A stretch of DNA of 64,000 bases from Paenibacillaceae bacterium (GTDB taxonomy: Bacteria > Bacillota > Clostridia > Lachnospirales > Lachnospiraceae). A program made the position numbers and the translations under genes. Within the stretch, counting starts at the first letter, position 1. The number at the start of each line of letters is the position of its first letter. The notes beneath the pieces were generated by a model, which saw nothing but the letters and a program-made list of their open reading frames with translations, was not told where the DNA came from and searched no databases. This document shows positions 4,694-13,340 of the stretch, in pieces. Location of the stretch: the NCBI GenBank assembly GCA_015057705.1, contig SVDU01000017.1, positions 1-64,000 of the forward strand. Reading direction: 5' to 3'.

Positions 4694-5062
4694 TTATATC
4701 CCATTTCTTTTTAATTCTGTCCTCAGCCTTTCCAGTGCCTTTTTTTCCAGTCTTGATACATAGGATCTGGAAATTCCCATGAGATCTGCGATCTCCCTCT
4801 GAGTGTACTCCCTGCCGCCATGAAGTCCATAGCGCATTCCTATAATTGTTTTTTCATTGTCTTTCAGGCAGGAATCAAAAACTTCATAAAGTTCCTTGAT
4901 GTCCTGTTTTAGTATGATGGTCTCTAACGTCTCTTTATTCTCCATTTCGATCACATCCAGAAGGCTTACTGTTTCTCCATCCTTGTCTACACCGATGGGT
5001 TCATATAAAGACACCTCTTTTGAATATTTTTTATTAGCACGAAGGAGCATTAGGATCTCATT
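4694..5062 (-). CDS. sigK: sigK 3' half: sigma-K regions 3-4 (interrupted gene)
   Basis: C-terminal half of the late mother-cell sigma factor. It begins inside the attachment core as NEILMLLRANKK and runs through LYEPIGVDKDGETVSL to the region 4.2 helix-turn-helix YTQREIADLMGISRSYVSRL. The same frame stays open into the element up to 5131, but those residues are recombinase DNA read in another frame and have no start signal, so alone this half is not expressible. Its missing N-terminal half is at 12926-13193 on the same strand. Joined at AATG the two give one frame of 89+121 residues that follows Bacillus sigma-K closely (…KCVEN-EILMLLRANKK…). Confidence 0.93.
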   Translation of the reverse strand, partial: NEILMLLRANKKYSKEVSLYEPIGVDKDGETVSLLDVIEMENKETLETIILKQDIKELYEVFDSCLKDNEKTIIGMRYGLHGGREYTQREIADLMGISRSYVSRLEKKALERLRTELKRNGI

Positions 5063-6728
5063 TGCTAGAGTCACAAAGCGGCTCCTTAGAGCCATACAGA
5101 TAGAGATGGACAGTATCCCCATCCCAGACAACCCGTTTTACCAGAATCCGGATTGCAGCCCGTTTCTGTTCCACATCCATAAAATCCACAGTTTTTTCAA
5201 AATTGGACAGGGTCTCTTTCAACAGATCAAATTCCAGAGCAGTCAATTCTTTTCCCATGGCAGTTTCCTTACAGACTTCAATCTGGGACAGGATCTGTTC
5301 TTTCTTTTTATGCAGTTCATCAATCTGTCTGACGATATAGTCGTATGCCGCCGTTCCCCCGGCAACCTTGATTGACGTCACAAGTCCCTCAATGTCTTTT
5401 TCAGTTTGAGACAATTCCTCTAGAAGGCGACTGACATCCTGTTCATAATCCTGCTTTTCTTCCTTAAGCTGCTTTCTGCCTTCCTCCAGCTGCCTGGTGA
5501 ATTCTTTTTTGTCTTCAGAAATTTTTTTAAGTTCCTCAATCACCAGTCTGTCTAACAGATTTCCATCGGCATTTTTTATTGCACAGCACTTCATGCGGCT
5601 TTTTTCTTTCATGGAACATAGGTAGGAATAGATCTGTTCTCCCCGGTCATTATATCTGCCGGAAAGCTTGGGCCGCATATAGTGATTGCAATTCCCGCAT
5701 ACAAGAATGCCGGAAAGAAGTGCCACATTACTTCTGGGTCTGCGGTAATTTTTTGATTTATTCCGTTCCAGCTGACGCTGGACACTGACCCACTCCGCTC
5801 CCGGAATCAGCCCCTCATGTCTGCCAATTGCCACAATCCATTCTTCCATCTCTTTCATCTCATGGGCCTTTCCCTGCTTTTGTAAAGTCCGGTTATATGC
5901 AATAATACCATGGGTCCCTTTAAAATCAGCGGGGTCAGCAAAAAGTTCTACTTTTTTTTCTTTCAGATAGTCATAGGCTTCCTGATCTGCAATCATATAC
6001 ACCGGGTTTGAAAGAATAGCCTTAATTGCAAATCGGCTGAATAGACGTCCCTGCTTTGTTTTGTATCCATTCTGTATGAGATAAGTCTCTGTCTGTGTCA
6101 GGGAACCGGTTTCCAGAAATTTTTCATAAATCCGCTTTACCAGCTTTGCCTCCTGGGGAATCCGTTTCAGTTTATATGCCTTTTTCTGCTTCCCGTCAAT
6201 GGTTATGGAAGTTACCCGTTCAGACTGATACCCGGTTGGGGTATTTCCGCCAAGCCATCTTCCGCTTTTGGAAAGTTCATGCATATTATCCCGGATCCGT
6301 TCTGCAATGGTTTCTCTTTCCAGTTGGGAAAATACAGAAGCAATATACATCATGGCCCTTCCCATGGGAGATGATGTATCAAACTGCTCTTTAATTGAAA
6401 TAAATGAAATTTCCAGATGATTCAGTTCTCCGATCAGATTGGCAAAATCTCCAATATTACGGCTGATCCGGTCAAGGCGGTAGCATACAATCGCTGAAAT
6501 CTTCTTTTTCTTTGCTTCTTTCATCATCTGCTGAAACTGGGGACGCTCTAAATTTCCTCCGGAAAAACCCTCATCTTCAAAAATCAAGGCACTGTCTGCA
6601 AAGGATTCTCCGTAATGGGATAAGATATATTGTCTGCAAAGCTCGATCTGATTGCCGATGCTTTCCCCTTTTCCGGTAAATTTGGATTTTCTTGAATATA
6701 TGGCAAACGGCTGATTTCTGTCTTCCAT
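5058..6728 (-). CDS. Large serine recombinase of the sigK element (SpoIVCA-like)
   Basis: Site-specific recombinase (556 aa) expected to excise the element and rebuild sigK. The N-terminal resolvase domain has the nucleophile motif YSRKS (Ser15) and the conserved block CYRLDRISRNIGD. A recombinase domain follows, then a zinc ribbon (CGNCNHYMRPKL … YLCSMKEKSRMKCC), then a long coiled coil (about 410-510). I chose the ATG at 6728, not the upstream one, because AAGGAGG stands 9 nt before it. The TGA stop (5060-5058) lies in the attachment core itself, so the gene occupies the very end of the element next to the sigK 3' half. In the excised circle the stop would be lost and the frame extended. 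Confidence 0.93.
   Translation of the reverse strand: MEDRNQPFAIYSRKSKFTGKGESIGNQIELCRQYILSHYGESFADSALIFEDEGFSGGNLERPQFQQMMKEAKKKKISAIVCYRLDRISRNIGDFANLIGELNHLEISFISIKEQFDTSSPMGRAMMYIASVFSQLERETIAERIRDNMHELSKSGRWLGGNTPTGYQSERVTSITIDGKQKKAYKLKRIPQEAKLVKRIYEKFLETGSLTQTETYLIQNGYKTKQGRLFSRFAIKAILSNPVYMIADQEAYDYLKEKKVELFADPADFKGTHGIIAYNRTLQKQGKAHEMKEMEEWIVAIGRHEGLIPGAEWVSVQRQLERNKSKNYRRPRSNVALLSGILVCGNCNHYMRPKLSGRYNDRGEQIYSYLCSMKEKSRMKCCAIKNADGNLLDRLVIEELKKISEDKKEFTRQLEEGRKQLKEEKQDYEQDVSRLLEELSQTEKDIEGLVTSIKVAGGTAAYDYIVRQIDELHKKKEQILSQIEVCKETAMGKELTALEFDLLKETLSNFEKTVDFMDVEQKRAAIRILVKRVVWDGDTVHLYLYGSKEPLCDSSK
5059..5062 (-). other. Attachment site at the sigK 3' half
   Basis: The minus strand reads CTAGCAAATG|AGATCCTAATG. 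The AATG core is shared with the other end at 12926-12929. Sequence after the core is sigK codons, sequence before it is the end of the recombinase gene. The exact two-base crossover inside AATG cannot be told from sequence. Confidence 0.8.
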
Positions 6729-6793
6729 CACACAAATCCTCCTTGTTTTCACATGGAAAGCGCGTCCTCAAACATACCGGACACGCAGAATAA

Positions 6794-6801
6794 CATACAA
6801 A
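6794..6801 (+). promoter_or_regulatory. Possible sigma-E type -10 element before the 55-aa gene
   Basis: CATACAAA resembles the sigma-E -10 consensus (CATACAAT). The -35 side is weak (ACATACC about 17 bp upstream). It would place the small gene under mother-cell control, but a TATAGT overlaps it and an ordinary promoter is equally possible. Confidence 0.25.
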
Positions 6802-6832
6802 TATAGTAACCCTGAATTTCAAGGTATTCTCT

Positions 6833-7000
6833 ATGAACATGATCGTATATAATCCTCAAACGGAAGAAGATAAAAAAGAACTGGGCAGAAGGGCAGCTGT
6901 CATTCACAATCAGGTGCTAATGCAGTCAGTACGCCTGCTTCACTGCCCAAATGACCAAAAGAAATCGCTTTTAGATGCAATAAAAGCAGAAAGCACTTAG
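6833..7000 (+). CDS. Small protein, candidate recombination directionality factor
   Basis: 55-residue reading frame, divergent from the recombinase and convergent with the hydrogenase, ending 4 nt from the hydrogenase stop. AAGG lies 8 nt before ATG 6833; a second in-frame ATG is at 6839. The protein is charged and helical-looking (QTEEDKKELGRRAAVIHNQV, ending LLDAIKAEST), without membrane segments. I do not recognise the family. Known sigK-element recombinases need a small directionality factor encoded in the element (C. difficile CD1234 is the example), and this is the only small gene next to the recombinase, so that role is my inference from position and size alone. Confidence 0.55.
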   Translation: MNMIVYNPQTEEDKKELGRRAAVIHNQVLMQSVRLLHCPNDQKKSLLDAIKAEST

Positions 7001-7004
7001 GCAG

Positions 7005-8381
7005 TCAGACAACCGGAATAATTTTAGTGGTTTTTCCGGGGATGATTACATGAGTGGCACAGGAAACGCAAGGGTCAAAGGATCTGATAATTCTTCCTAT
7101 TTCAACTGGCATAGATTCATCTTTCACCGGTGCACCCATAAGCGCCTGTTCTGCTGTTCCTTTTCTCTCTCCTGTCTGAGTGGATAAATTCCATGCAGAC
7201 GGAGTGATAATCTGGTAGAACAGGATTTTTTCATCCTCAATTGTCAGCCAGTGTCCAAGTGCTCCTCTGGTTGTATCGACCAGCCCCTTTCCATACGCCT
7301 GAGCCGGTATCACATATTCCTGCTGCATGGGTACACCTGGAATCAGATTCTCTAAAAGAGTATTCATGATCTGGGTTATTTTTTTCGCTTCCAGAACCCG
7401 TGCAATGGTTCTGTCCATGACAGATATCCCATGTCTGTACTCTCCTGACAACCATTGCCTTGCCAACGGACCCACTTCAAAAGGGACCCCATTGTATCTG
7501 GGAGCCCTGATCCAGGAATAAGCTTCTGGTTTCTCCCTGTCTGGCTCATTGGCTTCATTAAACCAGGCATATTCATCTGACTGGGTAATGAGGTCCGGAT
7601 CAAAATTGGAATACTGCTCCTTTGTATAAATATATGGATCTACATATAAAGTCCCAAGCTCCTTATAATGCTGAAAGCAGCCATACGTTAAAAGATTACC
7701 ATAGCCTCCGCCAAAATGATAATACTCCGAGTAATAAGCCGCTATTTCGTATACATCCGGCAACATTTTTTCAGTAATAAATGTTTCAATCCCAAATAGT
7801 ATGGATTTAATGGCTATAATCATATCAGCCGTTACAGGAGATGTGATTCCTCCTATAAAAACGCCGTGGTTGTGAGGTGCCTTTCCTCCTAGTATTGCCA
7901 GCATTTTATGTGCATTCCTGCTATATTCCAACGATTCAAAATAATCATTTACCATGCGTTCATTAACCTTTTCAGGCAGCCGGTAATCGTTGTGATCCGT
8001 TTTAAAAAGAGGATAGCCTTCCGGCAGCTTTACATAGTCTGGAAGTGTATACTGATATAGATGCCTTAAATGATTCTGGAGAAATTCACATGCATGAAGC
8101 AGATCCCTTAAATATCTTCCCTGCTCTGAGGGTACAATCCCCAGAGCATCTTCAAGCGCAAGGGCGGAGGCCATGGAATGGGCAGTAGAACAGATTCCGC
8201 AGATCCGCTGTGTAAAATAAACCGCATCCAAAGGTGCTCTGCCTGTCAGCATTTTTTCAAAGCCACGGAACATAAGGCCTTTCGTGCGTGCATCAGTAAT
8301 AACATTATTTCCTACTTCTGCTGCTATCTCCATGAACCCATTAATTCTTGTAACTGGATTGATGATAATTGTGTCCGCCAT
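7005..8381 (-). CDS. [NiFe] hydrogenase large (catalytic) subunit
   Basis: Carries the NiFe(CN)2CO active site for H2 oxidation or production. Both nickel-binding motifs are intact: RICGICSTAHS (about 59-69) and DPCVSCATH near the end. A tail of about 14 residues follows the last histidine; such tails are cut off by the maturation protease after metal insertion, and a protease of that type is encoded upstream. Length 458 aa is ordinary. The start follows AAGGAG at 4 nt, inside the end of the small-subunit gene. No hyp maturation genes are in the element, so these would have to come from the rest of the genome. The exact hydrogenase group cannot be fixed by eye. Confidence 0.95.
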   Translation of the reverse strand: MADTIIINPVTRINGFMEIAAEVGNNVITDARTKGLMFRGFEKMLTGRAPLDAVYFTQRICGICSTAHSMASALALEDALGIVPSEQGRYLRDLLHACEFLQNHLRHLYQYTLPDYVKLPEGYPLFKTDHNDYRLPEKVNERMVNDYFESLEYSRNAHKMLAILGGKAPHNHGVFIGGITSPVTADMIIAIKSILFGIETFITEKMLPDVYEIAAYYSEYYHFGGGYGNLLTYGCFQHYKELGTLYVDPYIYTKEQYSNFDPDLITQSDEYAWFNEANEPDREKPEAYSWIRAPRYNGVPFEVGPLARQWLSGEYRHGISVMDRTIARVLEAKKITQIMNTLLENLIPGVPMQQEYVIPAQAYGKGLVDTTRGALGHWLTIEDEKILFYQIITPSAWNLSTQTGERKGTAEQALMGAPVKDESMPVEIGRIIRSFDPCVSCATHVIIPGKTTKIIPVV

Positions 8382-8382
8382 A

Positions 8383-9279
8383 TTACTCCTTCCTCATGGT
8401 ATCATAAGTGATGAACGGTTCCATGGCATCTGGAAATCCAAACTGGGCGCAGCCAATGCAGGGCGTATCATCACCAATCGGCCAGTTTACGTGCCCATTC
8501 CATTTGCGGATAGGGCAGTCTGTCTGTGTTACAGGTCCCCGGCATCCCAGCATGTACATACAGGTTTCTTCTCCCAGCTTTGTTGCAAATATTCCAGAAT
8601 CATAATAGGATCTTCTTGGACAACGGTCATGAATTGTTATGCCATAAAACATCAGCGGCCGGTCCACTTCGTCCAGAGGCGGTTCCCCATACAGAATTAA
8701 ATAAGCCACGGTTCCCATGAGCCAGTCCGGATGACAGGGACATCCGGTAAGCTTGATTACTTTACGGTTGACAACATCTGAAATCCCGGTACAGTCTGAC
8801 GGATTCGGTCTTGCCGCCGATACTCCGCCATAGGAGGCGCAGTCACCAACTGCTATCACATGGGCAGCACGTTCTCCCAGCCGCATTGCTGCTTCAAGGC
8901 CCGTTATCTCTCTTCCCTCATGACGTCCGATGATATGATAGAGTCCGTTGTCCCTTCTGGAAACAGCACCTTCTACTGCTAATATGTATTCATCCCCAAT
9001 GATATCAAACAACTGATCCATCGCCTGATCCCCTTCGGAAGCGATCAGGCTGTTGCTGTAGATAAAGTTGGTCATCTGTGTCATAAGGTACTGGAAATCC
9101 GGATCCTGACCATCCAGCATGGAAATGGTATTTCCTGTACACCCGTTTAATTCCAGCCAGACCAGATTGGGTTTCGTACGTTTCTGACTTCCGATTTCTT
9201 CCATTGCTCTGCTTACCAGCTGTCTGGTTTCCTTCCATTTCATTTCTTGAAAAGGACAAAATGCATGCTTTTTCTCCAA
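8383..9279 (-). CDS. [NiFe] hydrogenase small (iron-sulfur) subunit
   Basis: Electron-transfer subunit (298 aa) that pairs with the large subunit encoded right after it. Cluster ligands are visible: proximal NGCTGNTIS, GDCASYGG and TGCPCHPDW; distal HDRCPRRSYYDSG with two further cysteines (TCMYMLGC); medial TDCP and TPCIGCAQFGFPD. The second cysteine of the proximal CxGC motif is replaced by asparagine. There is no twin-arginine signal peptide, so the enzyme should stay in the cytoplasm. The start is TTG, with a strong GGGGGAG 9 nt upstream that directly follows the stop of the cytochrome b5-like gene, implying coupled translation. Confidence 0.94.
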   Translation of the reverse strand: MEKKHAFCPFQEMKWKETRQLVSRAMEEIGSQKRTKPNLVWLELNGCTGNTISMLDGQDPDFQYLMTQMTNFIYSNSLIASEGDQAMDQLFDIIGDEYILAVEGAVSRRDNGLYHIIGRHEGREITGLEAAMRLGERAAHVIAVGDCASYGGVSAARPNPSDCTGISDVVNRKVIKLTGCPCHPDWLMGTVAYLILYGEPPLDEVDRPLMFYGITIHDRCPRRSYYDSGIFATKLGEETCMYMLGCRGPVTQTDCPIRKWNGHVNWPIGDDTPCIGCAQFGFPDAMEPFITYDTMRKE

Positions 9280-9295
9280 AGGTAATCGCTCCCCC

Positions 9296-10006
9296 CTATT
9301 CCTGAACCATATATCCTACAACAGGCAATACACTCAGTACCATTGCGCCAGGGTGACAGGAAGCAAACTCTGCACTTAAATCTCTGCCTGCTGAAAGTCC
9401 CCAGAAATGATTGCCACCTGCCCATAACCGGTTATTGCTAACATTATAAACCACCCCATTCACTGCTACATAAGCAGGGGCACCATTTTTTCCATCATAT
9501 TGTGCCAGTTGTTCCAGAGTAAAATAAGTCAGAGGCTGTGGCTGCGGTGTGCCGGTTGAGCCGCCCGTTGAACCTCCGGTCGGGCCTGTTACTCCTTCGG
9601 TCGGGCCTGTTACTCCTCCAGTCGGGCCTGTTACTCCTCCAGTCGGACCAGTAATTCCTCCGGTCGGGCCAGTAATTCCTCCGGTCGGGCCAGTAATTCC
9701 TCCGGTCGGGCCAGTAATTCCTCCGGTCGGGCCAGTGATTCCTCCGGTCGGGCCAGTAATTCCTCCGGTCGGGCCTCCCATTCCGCCGCCTGTCTGACCA
9801 TTCATCTGACTGGCAGATAGCCCATTCTCCTGCATCTGGCTCAATTGTCCGAAATAGTATACATGATTCTGAAGCATAATCAATTCACTGCTTAGATGAT
9901 CCAGCACATCATTGCTGTTGTATAGATTGGAGCGCAGCTTTTCCACATCAGCATTTAATCTCTTTAAACTGCTGCCAAGATACGTCATGAGTAAATCCAA
10001 ATCCAT
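9296..10006 (-). CDS. Cytochrome b5-like domain protein with Gly-Pro-Thr repeat linker
   Basis: Likely heme-binding electron-transfer partner of the hydrogenase. Residues 1-65 look helical/coiled coil ([20 protein letters not shown]). A low-complexity linker has ten copies of a seven-residue unit (GPTGGIT and variants). The C-terminal 80 residues match the cytochrome b5-like heme/steroid-binding fold ([20 protein letters not shown]), with histidines in [14 protein letters not shown] and CHPGA as possible ligands. There is no signal peptide or membrane segment. It stands first before the hydrogenase subunits with AAGGAGG before its ATG. Heme binding versus another ligand is not settled by sequence. 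Confidence 0.82.
9571..9780. repeat. 21-bp tandem repeat, ten copies
   Basis: A 21-bp unit (CCTCCGGTCGGGCCAGTAAT + T on the plus strand) recurs ten times in exact register; the shared GTCGG recurs every 21 bp from 9579 to 9768. It encodes the GPTGGIT linker. Several central copies are identical, so copy number is likely unstable. Confidence 0.92.
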
Positions 10007-10126
10007 AATGTAACCTCCTTATCCATTTCTAAATAACCTTTTTACCAGCTAATCTGTTAGAATATATGTGCAAGCCTGGATTTTAAGCCCATTTTCCAAG
10101 GCATTTATAAAAGTAGCCCGATATAA

Positions 10127-10555
10127 TTATCTTTTCTTTGCTTCTTTTGACAAAATTTCTCTTATCAAATCTTCTGTCTTTCTGCAAATATGGGGAAACT
10201 GCCTTTTTAACACAGTACTTAGCTCACAACCTGGTGCAATTATGGCAGCCTCAATTCCGATTAAGTATCCTTTTACAGGAAAACGGTACAGTCTTATCAT
10301 GTCAAGAAAACTCATATCATGCTGCATAATTGGATTGGATATCTGCTCCATAGTCTCCTCTAAGGAAAAAATTTTAACAGAACCCGGCCGGTCCCCAGAT
10401 GAAATGGCATCTAAAATCAGTATAAGCTCGTCGGGATTCAGAGAATAAAAGCTCGCCTCACTATCCGTTTCTCCATAGATTATTTCAAGTTCCCAGTGAA
10501 GGAACCGTTTTTCAAGTTCTTCTGCGACTAAAAGTCCAATCCCGTCATCCTTCAT
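10127..10555 (-). CDS. Hydrogenase maturation protease, 5' end frame-disrupted
   Basis: Endopeptidase of the HyaD/HycI family that clips the large-subunit C-terminus. Visible family features are DDGIGLLVAEEL, the nickel-ligand region LDAISSGDRPG and the histidine in MQHDMSFLDMIRL. The family's first strand (G-x-G-N-x-L-x-x-DDG) is encoded upstream as KLIAVGSRLMKDDG, but that frame has no normal start. An ATG at 10592 with a good GGGAGGG site is one base out of frame at a GGG run (10586-10588). Deleting one G would give MRTKLIAVGSRLMKDDG. So either the gene carries a frameshift, starts at ACG (10585), or uses the ATG listed here with a shortened N-terminus. It is upstream of the cytochrome b5-like gene on the same strand. 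Confidence 0.75.
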   Translation of the reverse strand: MKDDGIGLLVAEELEKRFLHWELEIIYGETDSEASFYSLNPDELILILDAISSGDRPGSVKIFSLEETMEQISNPIMQHDMSFLDMIRLYRFPVKGYLIGIEAAIIAPGCELSTVLKRQFPHICRKTEDLIREILSKEAKKR

Positions 10556-10622
10556 CAGCCGGCTGCCAACAGCGATCAGTTTCGTCCCTCATCCCTCCCT
10601 GTCCTATTTTTTTTAATATATG

Positions 10623-10658
10623 AAAAAGACATGGGAATATTACACTCCCATGTCTTTT
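10623..10658 (-). terminator. Terminator after the alpha-galactosidase gene
   Basis: Inverted repeat AAAGACATGGGA ... TCCCATGTCTTT followed on the minus strand by a T run, 5 nt after the GH27 stop. It separates the alpha-galactosidase from the hydrogenase module, so the two cargo sets are transcribed separately. Confidence 0.85.
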
Positions 10659-10662
10659 AAAA

Positions 10663-11955
10663 TCAGGTTTCCTCATAACGGCAGATCCTTGCCCCATGTC
10701 CAGGTACCTTTAATACCAGATCCTTTGATGTATTGATGAAAGTTTCACCTGTCCAGAGTTCTCTGAAACAAATACCGTTCCAATTTTCTTTTTCCAGCAA
10801 ACCGGCTGCAATAACAATTTCTCTTTCTTCTTCTAATAAATTGAAGGCAGCCAGATAATTGGAACCGCTCTTTTGATTACTGCTGTACCATATACAATGC
10901 TTCCTATCCCGGGCAAGCTGAAATGCTTTGCAGTCATCACTAAGAAGAGCTAATACATCTGGGTTTGTAAGCAGAGTTTTTGTCCACTCATCCAGCTTGG
11001 TAAGCTCCGCACCAATCATCATAGGTGACCGGAATATGCACCAGAGTGACATCATTGTAATCTGTTCATCTTTAGTAAACCGGGTCAGACGTTCCTCTCC
11101 AAAGCCTTTTCCCAACATACCCACAGGAAGCATATCACAGTCCGGATAATTCCCCTGCCCCACATGGTTCTGCCAATGCTCACACCGTTCAAACATCTGC
11201 TTTAACAAATTCCAGTCGTCCCAAAAGTCATCGGTAATCCTCCACATATTAGCATAAGTCTCATAATGCCATGCCTCCTTCAGCCGGGCAGGTCCCGGTG
11301 AAAGGCTAAGTACCATCTGCCTTCCGCTTTTATTGATTGCCTCATGAAGCATACGGATTTCTTCTTTTGCAGACGCTGCATCCATGCGGCAGATATCATC
11401 ACATTTGATAAAATCCACCCCCCACTGGGCATACAGCTGGAAAATAGAATCATAATAAGCCTGTGCTCCCTCTGCCTCAGAATTCACACCATACATATCC
11501 GGATTCCATGAGCAGATGGAATAAGGATTTGAGATCCCATCAGCTGTACGATCTGTTCCCCATATTTTCATCTTATTATGAGCTGCGATACGGGGTACCC
11601 CTCTCATAATGTGAATCCCGAATTTTAACCCCAGCCCGTGGATATAATCAGCCAGCGGTTTAAAACCATGACCGCCCACAGAAGATGGAAAGCGTTCCGG
11701 ACACGGCCAAAGTCTGGAATATTCGTCTATTTCAACCTGACCGAAGGGAATATACTGGCACTCCTGCCGTCTGGTTCCAGCATTATGAGCATACCACTGT
11801 ATATCAACCACAATATATTCCCAGCCATAATCATTTAAATGCTGTGCCATATATTCAGCATTGGCCCGAACCTCTTGTTCTGTTACTGCCGTATCATAAT
11901 AGTCATAGCTGTTCCACCCCATAGGGGGTTTTCCTGATGATAAATATCTGCTCAT
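10663..11955 (-). CDS. GH27-family alpha-galactosidase
   Basis: Glycoside hydrolase of 430 aa predicted to release terminal alpha-galactose from melibiose- or raffinose-type sugars. Near the N-terminus it has GKPPMGWNSYDYYD, the clan D hallmark. The nucleophile is the first Asp of DFIKCDD, and the acid/base Asp lies in MWRITDDFWDDW. A small beta-sandwich domain ends the protein. There is no signal peptide, so it should act in the cytoplasm on imported sugar. It is divergent from an AraC regulator 101 bp away that probably controls it. Alpha-N-acetylgalactosaminidase or isomalto-dextranase activity is possible in this family. Confidence 0.88.
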   Translation of the reverse strand: MSRYLSSGKPPMGWNSYDYYDTAVTEQEVRANAEYMAQHLNDYGWEYIVVDIQWYAHNAGTRRQECQYIPFGQVEIDEYSRLWPCPERFPSSVGGHGFKPLADYIHGLGLKFGIHIMRGVPRIAAHNKMKIWGTDRTADGISNPYSICSWNPDMYGVNSEAEGAQAYYDSIFQLYAQWGVDFIKCDDICRMDAASAKEEIRMLHEAINKSGRQMVLSLSPGPARLKEAWHYETYANMWRITDDFWDDWNLLKQMFERCEHWQNHVGQGNYPDCDMLPVGMLGKGFGEERLTRFTKDEQITMMSLWCIFRSPMMIGAELTKLDEWTKTLLTNPDVLALLSDDCKAFQLARDRKHCIWYSSNQKSGSNYLAAFNLLEEEREIVIAAGLLEKENWNGICFRELWTGETFINTSKDLVLKVPGHGARICRYEET

Positions 11956-12056
11956 CTGATATCCTTTCCTGGTAATTTATTGATAAATCTGATATCATTA
12001 TAGCAACTGAATCATCTATTACAAGAGTAAGAACACGATACAGGGAGGGTAATTTT

Positions 12057-12905
12057 TTGATTAACGGATCTTGCCAGACATTTGGTTTTCTGGATCTTGA
12101 CAGACAATGGAATGCACCACTGTTTCTTCTGGATTTTGGAATGGAGCAGAGAAAAAATGAAACCTATGATTTTCAAAATAATAATCGAGGCAGTTATTCT
12201 GGTTATCTGCTTCAGTATACATTAGATGGAACCGGAATGTTTGAATCAGAAGGGCAAACAACCATTCTATCTCCTGGAGATGCTTTTTTTATCACATTTC
12301 CAGATAGAAGCAGATACTATCTGGCTGAAAATAATTCATGGAAATACTTTTACATACATTTTGACGGCGAAATGGGCCTATATTTTTTTCAGCGGATACA
12401 GGCTCTCACAGGAAAAACCTTTACCATACCCAATACAAGTCAGGCCATCTTACTGTTTTTAGAGGAATTCCAGGCAGTGAAATCAGGGAAGAAATACGGA
12501 CGCTATGACAGCGGGATCTTTTTATACCAATTCCTGACCCTGCTTATGAGAGAGCTGGAAACCCCGCTAAAAGCAGTTAAAAATGCCTGTGTGGAAGATG
12601 CCGCAAAGTGGATGCAGAAAAACTATAAATATCAGATCGGGCTCTCTCAGATGTGCCGGGAGCTTGACGTAAGCCTTCCCCATTTAACAAGGCAGTTCCA
12701 TTTGCAGACAGGGCTATCTCCCACAAAGTATTTAACCAGTCTGCGCCTGGAACATGCATTATCCCTTCTACTAAATACGTCAATGGGTCTTGAGGCCATT
12801 GCGGCGGAATGCGGATACTCCAACAGCAATTATTTCTCAAAGGTTTTTAGGAAAAACATGGGGATTTCACCTGCTCAATACAGAGACCGGCATAATGGAC
12901 TGTAA
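12057..12905 (+). CDS. AraC-family transcriptional regulator
   Basis: Sugar-responsive regulator of 282 aa. The N-terminal cupin-type sensing domain (about 1-160) contains LSPGDAFFITFPDRSRYYL and YFYIHFDGEMG. The C-terminal double helix-turn-helix includes GLSPTKYLTSLRLEHA and the signature AAECGYSNSNYFSKVFRKNM. The start is TTG with GGAGG 8 nt upstream. It is divergent from the alpha-galactosidase gene, its likely target. Its stop lies only 20 bp from the attachment core, marking the other border of the element. Confidence 0.88.
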   Translation: MINGSCQTFGFLDLDRQWNAPLFLLDFGMEQRKNETYDFQNNNRGSYSGYLLQYTLDGTGMFESEGQTTILSPGDAFFITFPDRSRYYLAENNSWKYFYIHFDGEMGLYFFQRIQALTGKTFTIPNTSQAILLFLEEFQAVKSGKKYGRYDSGIFLYQFLTLLMRELETPLKAVKNACVEDAAKWMQKNYKYQIGLSQMCRELDVSLPHLTRQFHLQTGLSPTKYLTSLRLEHALSLLLNTSMGLEAIAAECGYSNSNYFSKVFRKNMGISPAQYRDRHNGL

Positions 12906-12911
12906 AAGCCG

Positions 12912-13193
12912 TTATGATAGTATACCATTCTCCACACATTTCGCCGCATAAGTGGCCAGCCTTGATCCTCTGTCTGGATGAAAGGTATTAACAGCCTTGA
13001 TTAAACCGATAGTTCCTACTGACAGGAGATCTTCCATATCATAGTCTGTATTCTGATACTTTTTTGCTACATGGGCTACAAGACGCATATTACGCTCGAT
13101 GAGTGTGGCTCTCGCCTCCTGATCCCCTTCCTGGTATCGTTCCAGACACTCTCGTTCCTCTCGCGCAGTTAAAGGTTTGGGAAAAGTTTTCAA
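12912..13193 (-). CDS. sigK: sigK 5' half: sigma-K region 2 (interrupted gene)
   Basis: N-terminal half of sigma-K, with FPKPLTAREERECLERY, MRLVAHVAKKYQNT and the -10-recognition block DLLSVGTIGLIKAV. The real sigma-K coding part ends at the attachment core; the last four codons (GILS) and the TAA are element DNA. The start is TTG with AAGGTGG 6 nt upstream, and an in-frame stop lies a few codons before it. So there is no room for the hydrophobic pro-sequence found in Bacillus pro-sigma-K; control by excision alone, as in C. difficile, is the likely design. GCATAAAAT further upstream resembles a sigma-E -10 box but lacks a clear -35. Confidence 0.93.
   Translation of the reverse strand: MKTFPKPLTAREERECLERYQEGDQEARATLIERNMRLVAHVAKKYQNTDYDMEDLLSVGTIGLIKAVNTFHPDRGSRLATYAAKCVENGILS
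12926..12929 (-). other. Attachment site at the sigK 5' half
   Basis: The minus strand reads TGTGTGGAGAATG|GTATACTATC. Bases before the bar are sigK codons (KCVEN), those after it are element DNA. AATG matches the core at 5059-5062. Confidence 0.8.
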
Positions 13194-13340
13194 AGAAAGC
13201 CACCTTAAACTTACTTACTCCTATTTTATGCCGTCGTCATCTTTAAAGTGCTTTTACAAAAAATATTGGCTTATACTTATTTATTTACAAAATTCTCCCT
13301 ATTACTTTACATAATATTTTTATGTAAAGTAAATTCCATT

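Follow-up and report, generated by a model that had tools for sequence, protein, structure and literature searches.

How can SigK be produced from a gene that is cut in two? This question is raised by a 64,000-nucleotide stretch of DNA from a bacterium of the genus Lacrimispora (positions 1 to 64,000 of contig SVDU01000017.1, assembly GCA_015057705.1; hereafter the window), in which the two halves of the sigma factor gene sigK flank an insert carrying a recombinase gene. An earlier note, made from these letters alone, had interpreted the insert as a skin-type element, i.e. an intervening element that is excised in the mother cell to build sigK. We consider it very probable that the insert is a vertically inherited Lacrimispora skin element, which is excised in the mother cell by its recombinase together with a 55-amino-acid (55-aa) factor, thereby rebuilding a sigK gene without pro-sequence, with its cargo genes riding along.

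As the earlier note had claimed, both sigK halves lie on the minus strand in the correct order (Table 1), the stated size of 7,867 bp is exact, and joining the halves at the shared AATG yields a single 210-aa frame, which begins with a TTG start codon and reads ...KCVENEILMLLRANKK... across the junction. The rejoined SigK scored 294.2 bits against NCBIfam PRK05803, the SigK model with a cut-off of 252, whereas the separate halves reached 141.5 and 145.3 bits, both below this cut-off. Against TIGR02846 the rejoined protein scored 292.4, slightly below the cut-off of 298.65, and the alignment starts only at position 24 of the model, consistent with the missing pro-sequence. In this respect Lacrimispora SigK is unlike B. 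subtilis SigK, which has a pro-sequence. No second intact sigK was found in the genome to which the window belongs (36 contigs, 98% complete), whose sole other full-length SigK match shows 46% identity and is, judging by this identity level, a SigE-like factor.

The earlier note had also proposed a search of related genomes for an intact sigK, and among 25 Lacrimispora genomes none was found at E≤1e-40. Both halves are present in 22 of the 25, and only the N half in two more (G001 and G015), whose contigs end within the element; the remaining genome (G010, 67% complete) gave no sigK match at this threshold. In 19 genomes both halves lie on a single contig, delimiting complete elements of 2,654 to 11,508 bp, and the junction is the same in all 19, with GTGGARAATG on the left and TAGCAAATGA on the right; GAGCCG/CGGCTC-like outer arms are present in most of them. 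In five relatives outside the genus sigK is uninterrupted, and the protein reads ENEIL at the very site. The median ratio of nonsynonymous to synonymous substitution rates (dN/dS) of the rejoined gene in the 19 genomes is 0.019 (from the 167 of 171 pairs whose dS exceeds 0.1), and this strong constraint argues that the split reflects neither decay nor chance.

We then considered the nature of the insert. A short identical core at both ends, recombinase-type arms and the in-frame rejoining of the sigK halves characterize it as a skin, and a Pfam scan of eight element ORFs (open reading frames; small overlapping ones were left out) revealed no structural genes of a prophage; a PHROGs scan covered the recombinase, the 55-aa protein and a cytochrome-b5-domain (b5) protein. 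The large serine recombinase, which had been claimed at one end, is borne out by its Resolvase, Recombinase and Zn ribbon domains. By every feature that could be tested the element is of skin type; it is set apart from known skins by its size and gene content, by the absence of recognised phage genes and by being fixed in the genus. Taken together, the junctions, the lack of a second sigK, the common crossover site in the genus, the uninterrupted ENEIL elsewhere and the excision-like assembly footprints described below uphold the skin-type interpretation. The 55-aa candidate, the hydrogenase cargo and the genus-wide extent of the split go beyond what the earlier note had reported.

In L. defluvii PI-S10-B5A, the element forms a contig of its own (7,842 bp, from core to core), and AATGA is all that its two ends have in common with the ends of the two flanking contigs. 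Since an assembly would not be expected to break at a repeat of five bases, the reads presumably support both joins, which suggests that the L. defluvii DNA was partly excised and partly integrated, be it in sporulating or in growing cells. Three more contigs also end in the core; of the four records concerned, three (L111, L131 and L185) are titled as metagenome-assembled genomes. A further genome (G016) was considered as excision evidence and set aside, as only its right end falls at the core and the other break lies ∼150–250 bp upstream of the left core, which makes it weaker than L. defluvii. In another (G014), the contig break lies inside the element and is uninformative on excision.

The recombinase gene is present in 19/19 complete genus elements (in G024 the gene is broken, through an error or decay) and evolves under constraint, with a median dN/dS of 0.087 (55 pairs; here and for the other element genes, pairs with dS outside 0.1–2.5 were dropped). 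The corresponding medians are 0.072 for the large subunit of a [NiFe] hydrogenase encoded on the element (44 pairs), 0.115 for the b5 protein (33 pairs) and 0.165 for the 55-aa ORF (44 pairs). Distances of all four follow those of sigK, with Mantel r values of 0.92 for the recombinase (n=19), 0.96 for the large subunit (n=14), 0.88 for the b5 protein (n=15) and 0.95 for the 55-aa protein (n=15), none of which was reached in 2000 permutations. Low dN/dS and distances tracking sigK together indicate that the element was retained and passed down along with the genus.

A scan of genome contigs returned at least 547 relatives of the recombinase, of which the best 80 were analyzed. In 76 of these a sigK match lies within 400 bp of the recombinase (73 on the same strand, three on the opposite one), and the contigs of the other four (L110, L111, L131 and L185) break off in the crossover core. 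Labels among these 80 include Lacrimispora, Oscillospiraceae, Sporomusa and Holdemania; a single recombinase family is lodged in the sigK gene of many Clostridia and of some further groups. A search of 348 family genomes likewise led us to fetch nine from outside the genus with a C half and a member of the recombinase family, and the N half was present in 9/9; this count is no measure of prevalence, since sigK was detected in just 75/348 genomes at E≤1e-35.

Divergent from the recombinase, an ORF of 53–62 aa is found in all 19 complete genus elements. The same family lies inside 10/10 distinct complete elements from other genera that our script recognised and that carry a full-length recombinase, and in 0/3 elements (G271, G054 and G323) whose recombinase stops at 324–373 aa. 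L161, L168 and L172 also carry the family and remained uncounted because the script left their sigK halves unpaired, and many loci without it stop short of the opposite element end. A hidden Markov model of the family separated its members cleanly from the rest of 11,678 small ORFs, with 37 matches at E<1e-8 and the next at E>3; the 89 sources of these ORFs include genus members, some of them in the training set, and at least one genome twice. Within the family genomes, 14/348 carry the 55-aa family, ten of them next to a sigK half or within a previously identified element; G048 and G187 hold distant homologues beside another serine recombinase, and G304 (see below) and G148 account for the other two. 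In the genome of the window, a different contig holds a further match, a weak one. The predicted model of the protein consists of two helices (predicted local distance difference test, pLDDT, 86.8). As a side observation, L227:1477-3168, a locus without sigK match, encodes a large serine recombinase that is directly preceded by a distant 55-aa homologue.

Upstream of the 55-aa ORF, the block CATAS-N-GGACAYG-N8-CATAYA is positioned 27–30 nt before the start codon in 19/19 genus elements. We read it as a predicted SpoIIID-like box followed by a SigmaE -10, GGACAYG being compared with the SpoIIID consensus GGACAAG; SpoIIID itself is encoded in 25/25 genus genomes. This arrangement resembles the control of the C. 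difficile factor CD1234 by SigmaE and SpoIIID, as given in passages of PMC5025042, and was counted in favour of the proposed excision. Judging by its co-occurrence with the recombinase, the 55-aa ORF likely encodes the recombination directionality factor.

These results suggest a model in which the element stays in sigK during growth as well as in the forespore lineage, so that no complete SigK would be made there. SigmaE, together with SpoIIID, would activate the 55-aa ORF in the mother cell, and the product of this ORF would bind the serine recombinase and redirect it to recombination of the two element-flanking attachment sites (attL x attR). Crossover would occur within AATG(A), most likely at AA, the element would leave as a circle, and sigK would be rejoined as one 210-codon gene without pro-sequence; because the mother cell is terminal, the spore would keep the element. 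The b5 gene and, in most species read, the [NiFe] hydrogenase operon ride on the element, and SigmaE probably turns on this cargo in the mother cell too. We infer the directionality-factor function, the cell type and timing of excision, and the expression of the hydrogenase.

Several observations weigh against this reconstruction. The genome of the window was assembled in the integrated form only, the support for excision is indirect, and the contig breaks may stem from strain mixtures, at least in metagenome bins. It is nonetheless scarcely credible that the insert is an inactive remnant which leaves sigK permanently broken, the strain being asporogenous or using another sigma factor: sigK halves occur in 24/25 genus genomes and an intact gene in none, the median dN/dS values of the rejoined sigK and of the recombinase are low, and contigs of relatives break at the core. 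With regard to the 55-aa ORF, a scan of nine elements from other genera for CATAS-N-GGACAYG-N8-CATAYA found none. The -35 before the ORF is weak, since shuffles equalled the total score in up to 137/200 rounds and the scorer favoured a different site in four genomes, that of the window among them, so that the promoter argument rests on conservation. Moreover, the protein has no match to a known factor in Pfam, NCBIfam, PHROGs, PDB (by sequence and fold) or phages: the best E value was 0.22 in the PDB sequence search and 6 among the two phage matches, and the fold search gave no PDB match at E≤0.001. In G304, the 55-aa family is present away from an intact sigK. These last two points would also be compatible with a skin-type element whose 55-aa ORF has another role, e.g. 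that of a repressor, with another protein or none needed for excision. We regard this alternative as improbable, since the ORF is found in every counted complete element with a full-length recombinase, including those of 2.65 kb, and distant homologues accompany other serine recombinases (G048 and G187). The preferred interpretation, mother-cell excision with the 55-aa protein as directionality factor, is retained; it describes a genus in which no intact sigK allele was found and offers a small conserved protein as a testable directionality factor.

In comparison with known systems, the element resembles C. difficile skin-Cd (CD1231 recombinase, CD1234 factor), for which passages of PMC5025042 and PMC3789829 describe an interrupted pro-less sigK, a serine recombinase and a small separate factor under SigmaE and SpoIIID. 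It differs in size (14.2 kb for skin-Cd versus 2.65–11.5 kb in Lacrimispora) and in its hydrogenase and b5 cargo. Furthermore, the 55-aa protein has many relatives, whereas CD1234 was reported in 2016 to lack database matches, a contrast drawn from the description of CD1234. The B. subtilis skin (SpoIVCA) interrupts the same gene and has a five-nucleotide core but is, unlike the Lacrimispora element, a 48-kb prophage-like element (according to a passage of PMC13141910), for which no directionality factor had been identified as of 2016 according to a passage of PMC5025042. The B. cereus gin element (GirC/GirX), as portrayed in parts of PMC5595907, is likewise small, intervening and not a prophage, and encodes a recombinase along with a directionality factor; its host gene is gerE, however, and those parts do not mention a hydrogenase. 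The phages phiS63 and MMB025 also integrate in sigK (passages of PMC13141910) and are infectious, whereas no structural gene was recognised among the scanned proteins of the Lacrimispora element. With respect to distribution, a passage of a 2013 C. difficile paper (PMC3789829) states that skin is absent from other clostridial species except an asporogenous C. tetani strain, and one of a 2017 paper (PMC5595907) that skins are distributed among Bacilli and Clostridia. In the open-licence PMC literature we found nothing that joins sigK intervening elements with a hydrogenase, and nothing on a sigK skin element in Lachnospiraceae; Lacrimispora and sigK come together there in a paper on an Enterocloster phage, and [NiFe] hydrogenase, mother cell and spore in two others.

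Table 1. Coordinates of the split sigK gene, the element and its genes in the window
Feature	Position	Strand	Remarks
Skin-type element, 7,867 bp	5063-12929
5' half of sigK	12926-13193	-	TTG start codon at 13193; without pro-sequence
3' half of sigK	4694-5062	-
sigK promoter region	13223-13251	-	AC-N17-CATAAAAT, sigmaE/sigmaK type; in 21/21 genus sequences
Left crossover core AATG	12926-12929	-	followed by GTATACTATC in this genome
Right crossover core AATGA	5058-5062	-	includes TGA stop codon of the recombinase gene
Outer attP arm GAGCCG	5079-5084	-	faces arm at 12906-12911; present in most genus elements
Opposite outer attP arm	12906-12911	-	CGGCTT here; CGGCTC in many relatives
Large serine recombinase	5058-6752	-	Resolvase, Recombinase, Zn ribbon; ATG 8 codons inside
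Block CATAS-N-GGACAYG-N8-CATAYA	6773-6803	+	SpoIIID-like box and sigmaE-like -10
55-aa ORF, candidate recombination directionality factor	6833-7000	+	divergent from recombinase
[NiFe] hydrogenase large subunit	7005-8381	-
[NiFe] hydrogenase small subunit	8383-9279	-	N end without twin-arginine motif, by eye
Cytochrome-b5-domain protein with collagen-like GPTGG repeats	9296-10006	-
Hydrogenase maturation protease, HycI/HupD type	10127-10555	-
SigmaE-like promoter before hydrogenase operon	10615-10642	-	TAATATT-N13-CATATATT
GH27-type alpha-galactosidase-like gene	10663-11955	-	upstream TTGTAA..TATAAT, sigmaA type by eye
AraC-family regulator	12057-12905	+

As for the cargo, a relative of the b5 protein is present in 19/19 complete genus elements, including the two minimal ones of ∼2.65 kb (G011 and G012), in which only the recombinase, the 55-aa ORF and the b5 protein were recognised. 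Large and small subunit domains together with a maturation protease identify the [NiFe] hydrogenase, and these three genes occur in 14/19 complete elements; the large subunit was also found in three further genomes whose elements are fragmented, which brings the hydrogenase to 17/25 genomes, in all of which it lies inside the element or an element fragment. Two copies do not look whole, through errors or decay, namely the small subunit of G004, which is in three frames, and the large subunit of G020, which contains a stop. HypD is encoded in 21/25 genus genomes; both HypD and the hydrogenase are missing from G010, G011 and G012, and in G016 (82% complete), a hydrogenase carrier, no HypD was found. 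A weaker second PF00374 match (∼370 aa) lies elsewhere in many genomes, here 5 kb from hypD. In the G018 element (L049:3647-8158), hypF, hypD and a hypE-like gene were also observed, which makes for a nearly self-sufficient hydrogenase island.

Operons combining b5 and hydrogenase genes away from sigK were encountered in other genera, in 3/348 family genomes and, not counting the genome of the window, in 17/392 genomes of the order. Seventeen of these 20 were fetched: 15/17 have a b5 match and one has a weak recombinase match, and no sigK match was detected in the fetched stretches. Their existence away from sigK indicates that the module probably pre-existed elsewhere and was then acquired or exchanged.

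To evaluate the control of the hydrogenase operon, promoter regions were scored against a SigmaE consensus. The region before hycI reached 13–14/15 in 11 genomes with two cargo types, scores attained by 0–9 of 200 shuffles. An exact pattern (Table 1), composed after inspecting the sequences themselves, occurs once on the sigK strand in 16/21 elements (19 complete and two partial), where it precedes hycI or, in the two minimal elements, b5; in the window it occurs once, at 10642 on the minus strand. It was found in 0 of 100 rounds of shuffling five elements, versus five observed. G019 and G020 have one extra match on the opposite strand. For comparison, the mapped SigmaE promoter of C. difficile spoIIID reads ATA-N16-CATATATA (passage of PMC3789822).

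The operon may, however, be ordinary vegetative cargo, the SigmaE-like motif being coincidental or serving another factor, which we consider a real possibility although we lean against it. The pattern was devised post hoc, it is missing from the elements of G001, G002, G018, G022 and G023, and the chromosomal operon of another genus (g405) has no conserved SigmaE-like site in four aligned genomes. What speaks for SigmaE is that the same spacing and -10 recur in 16/21 elements of varied context, together with the shuffling results and the likeness to the C. difficile promoter. Among hydrogenase loci outside elements, scattered SigmaE-like matches of 13–14/15 were present in 7/17, and directly upstream of b5 most genomes lack a shared high-scoring site. 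A hydrogenase with a sporulation-type promoter within the element would tie spore development to hydrogen metabolism. Going further, the skin might serve as a mother-cell cassette in which SigmaE turns on the hydrogenase and the collagen-repeat b5 protein before excision yields SigK. We regard this as rather unlikely; if true, the hydrogenase, for which no export signal was seen by eye, would act in the mother cell or on the spore surface, and in the latter place could provide a hydrogen-oxidising or redox-active spore coat. By eye, positions 10615-10655 of the window, past the GH27 gene, also form a terminator-like hairpin with trailing T's; in this cargo type the loop of the hairpin holds the hydrogenase -35.

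Some minor observations concern sigK and the recombinase. In G229 (L060 around 11841), an uninterrupted sigK has a core A run that is one base short, resulting in a frameshift at the crossover, an error or a scar. In L125, L130 and L168, the recombinase adjoins not the C half of sigK but the N half, with the two on opposite strands. Record L167, titled Faecalibacterium prausnitzii, has the recombinase beside a sigK C half; that species is not known to sporulate, so that the label or the role of the gene there is odd. No common promoter site for the recombinase was apparent across genus elements. We also considered the recombinase tail as an irreversible switch, as circle formation removes the stop codon here; the circle keeps a core stop in 10/19 complete elements, and in G008 and G018 the gene stops before the core, i.e. 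the device is not conserved. Among the phage matches listed, the integrase of Terrisporobacter phage TPELB_ph1 (L229:5995-7578) ranks first (40% identity over 96% of the query) and represents a possible source of the recombinase family.

Finally, three skin elements of other genera encode recombinases of 324–373 aa that lack both the Zn ribbon and the C-terminal part (L065:1221-2195, L068:1256-2257 and L067:2686-3807), and no 55-aa homologue was found in them. By eye, the inner att arms that flank AA in these elements form perfect inverted repeats, a symmetry that some full-length systems nearly attain, and these short-recombinase elements possibly represent a simplified recombination system.

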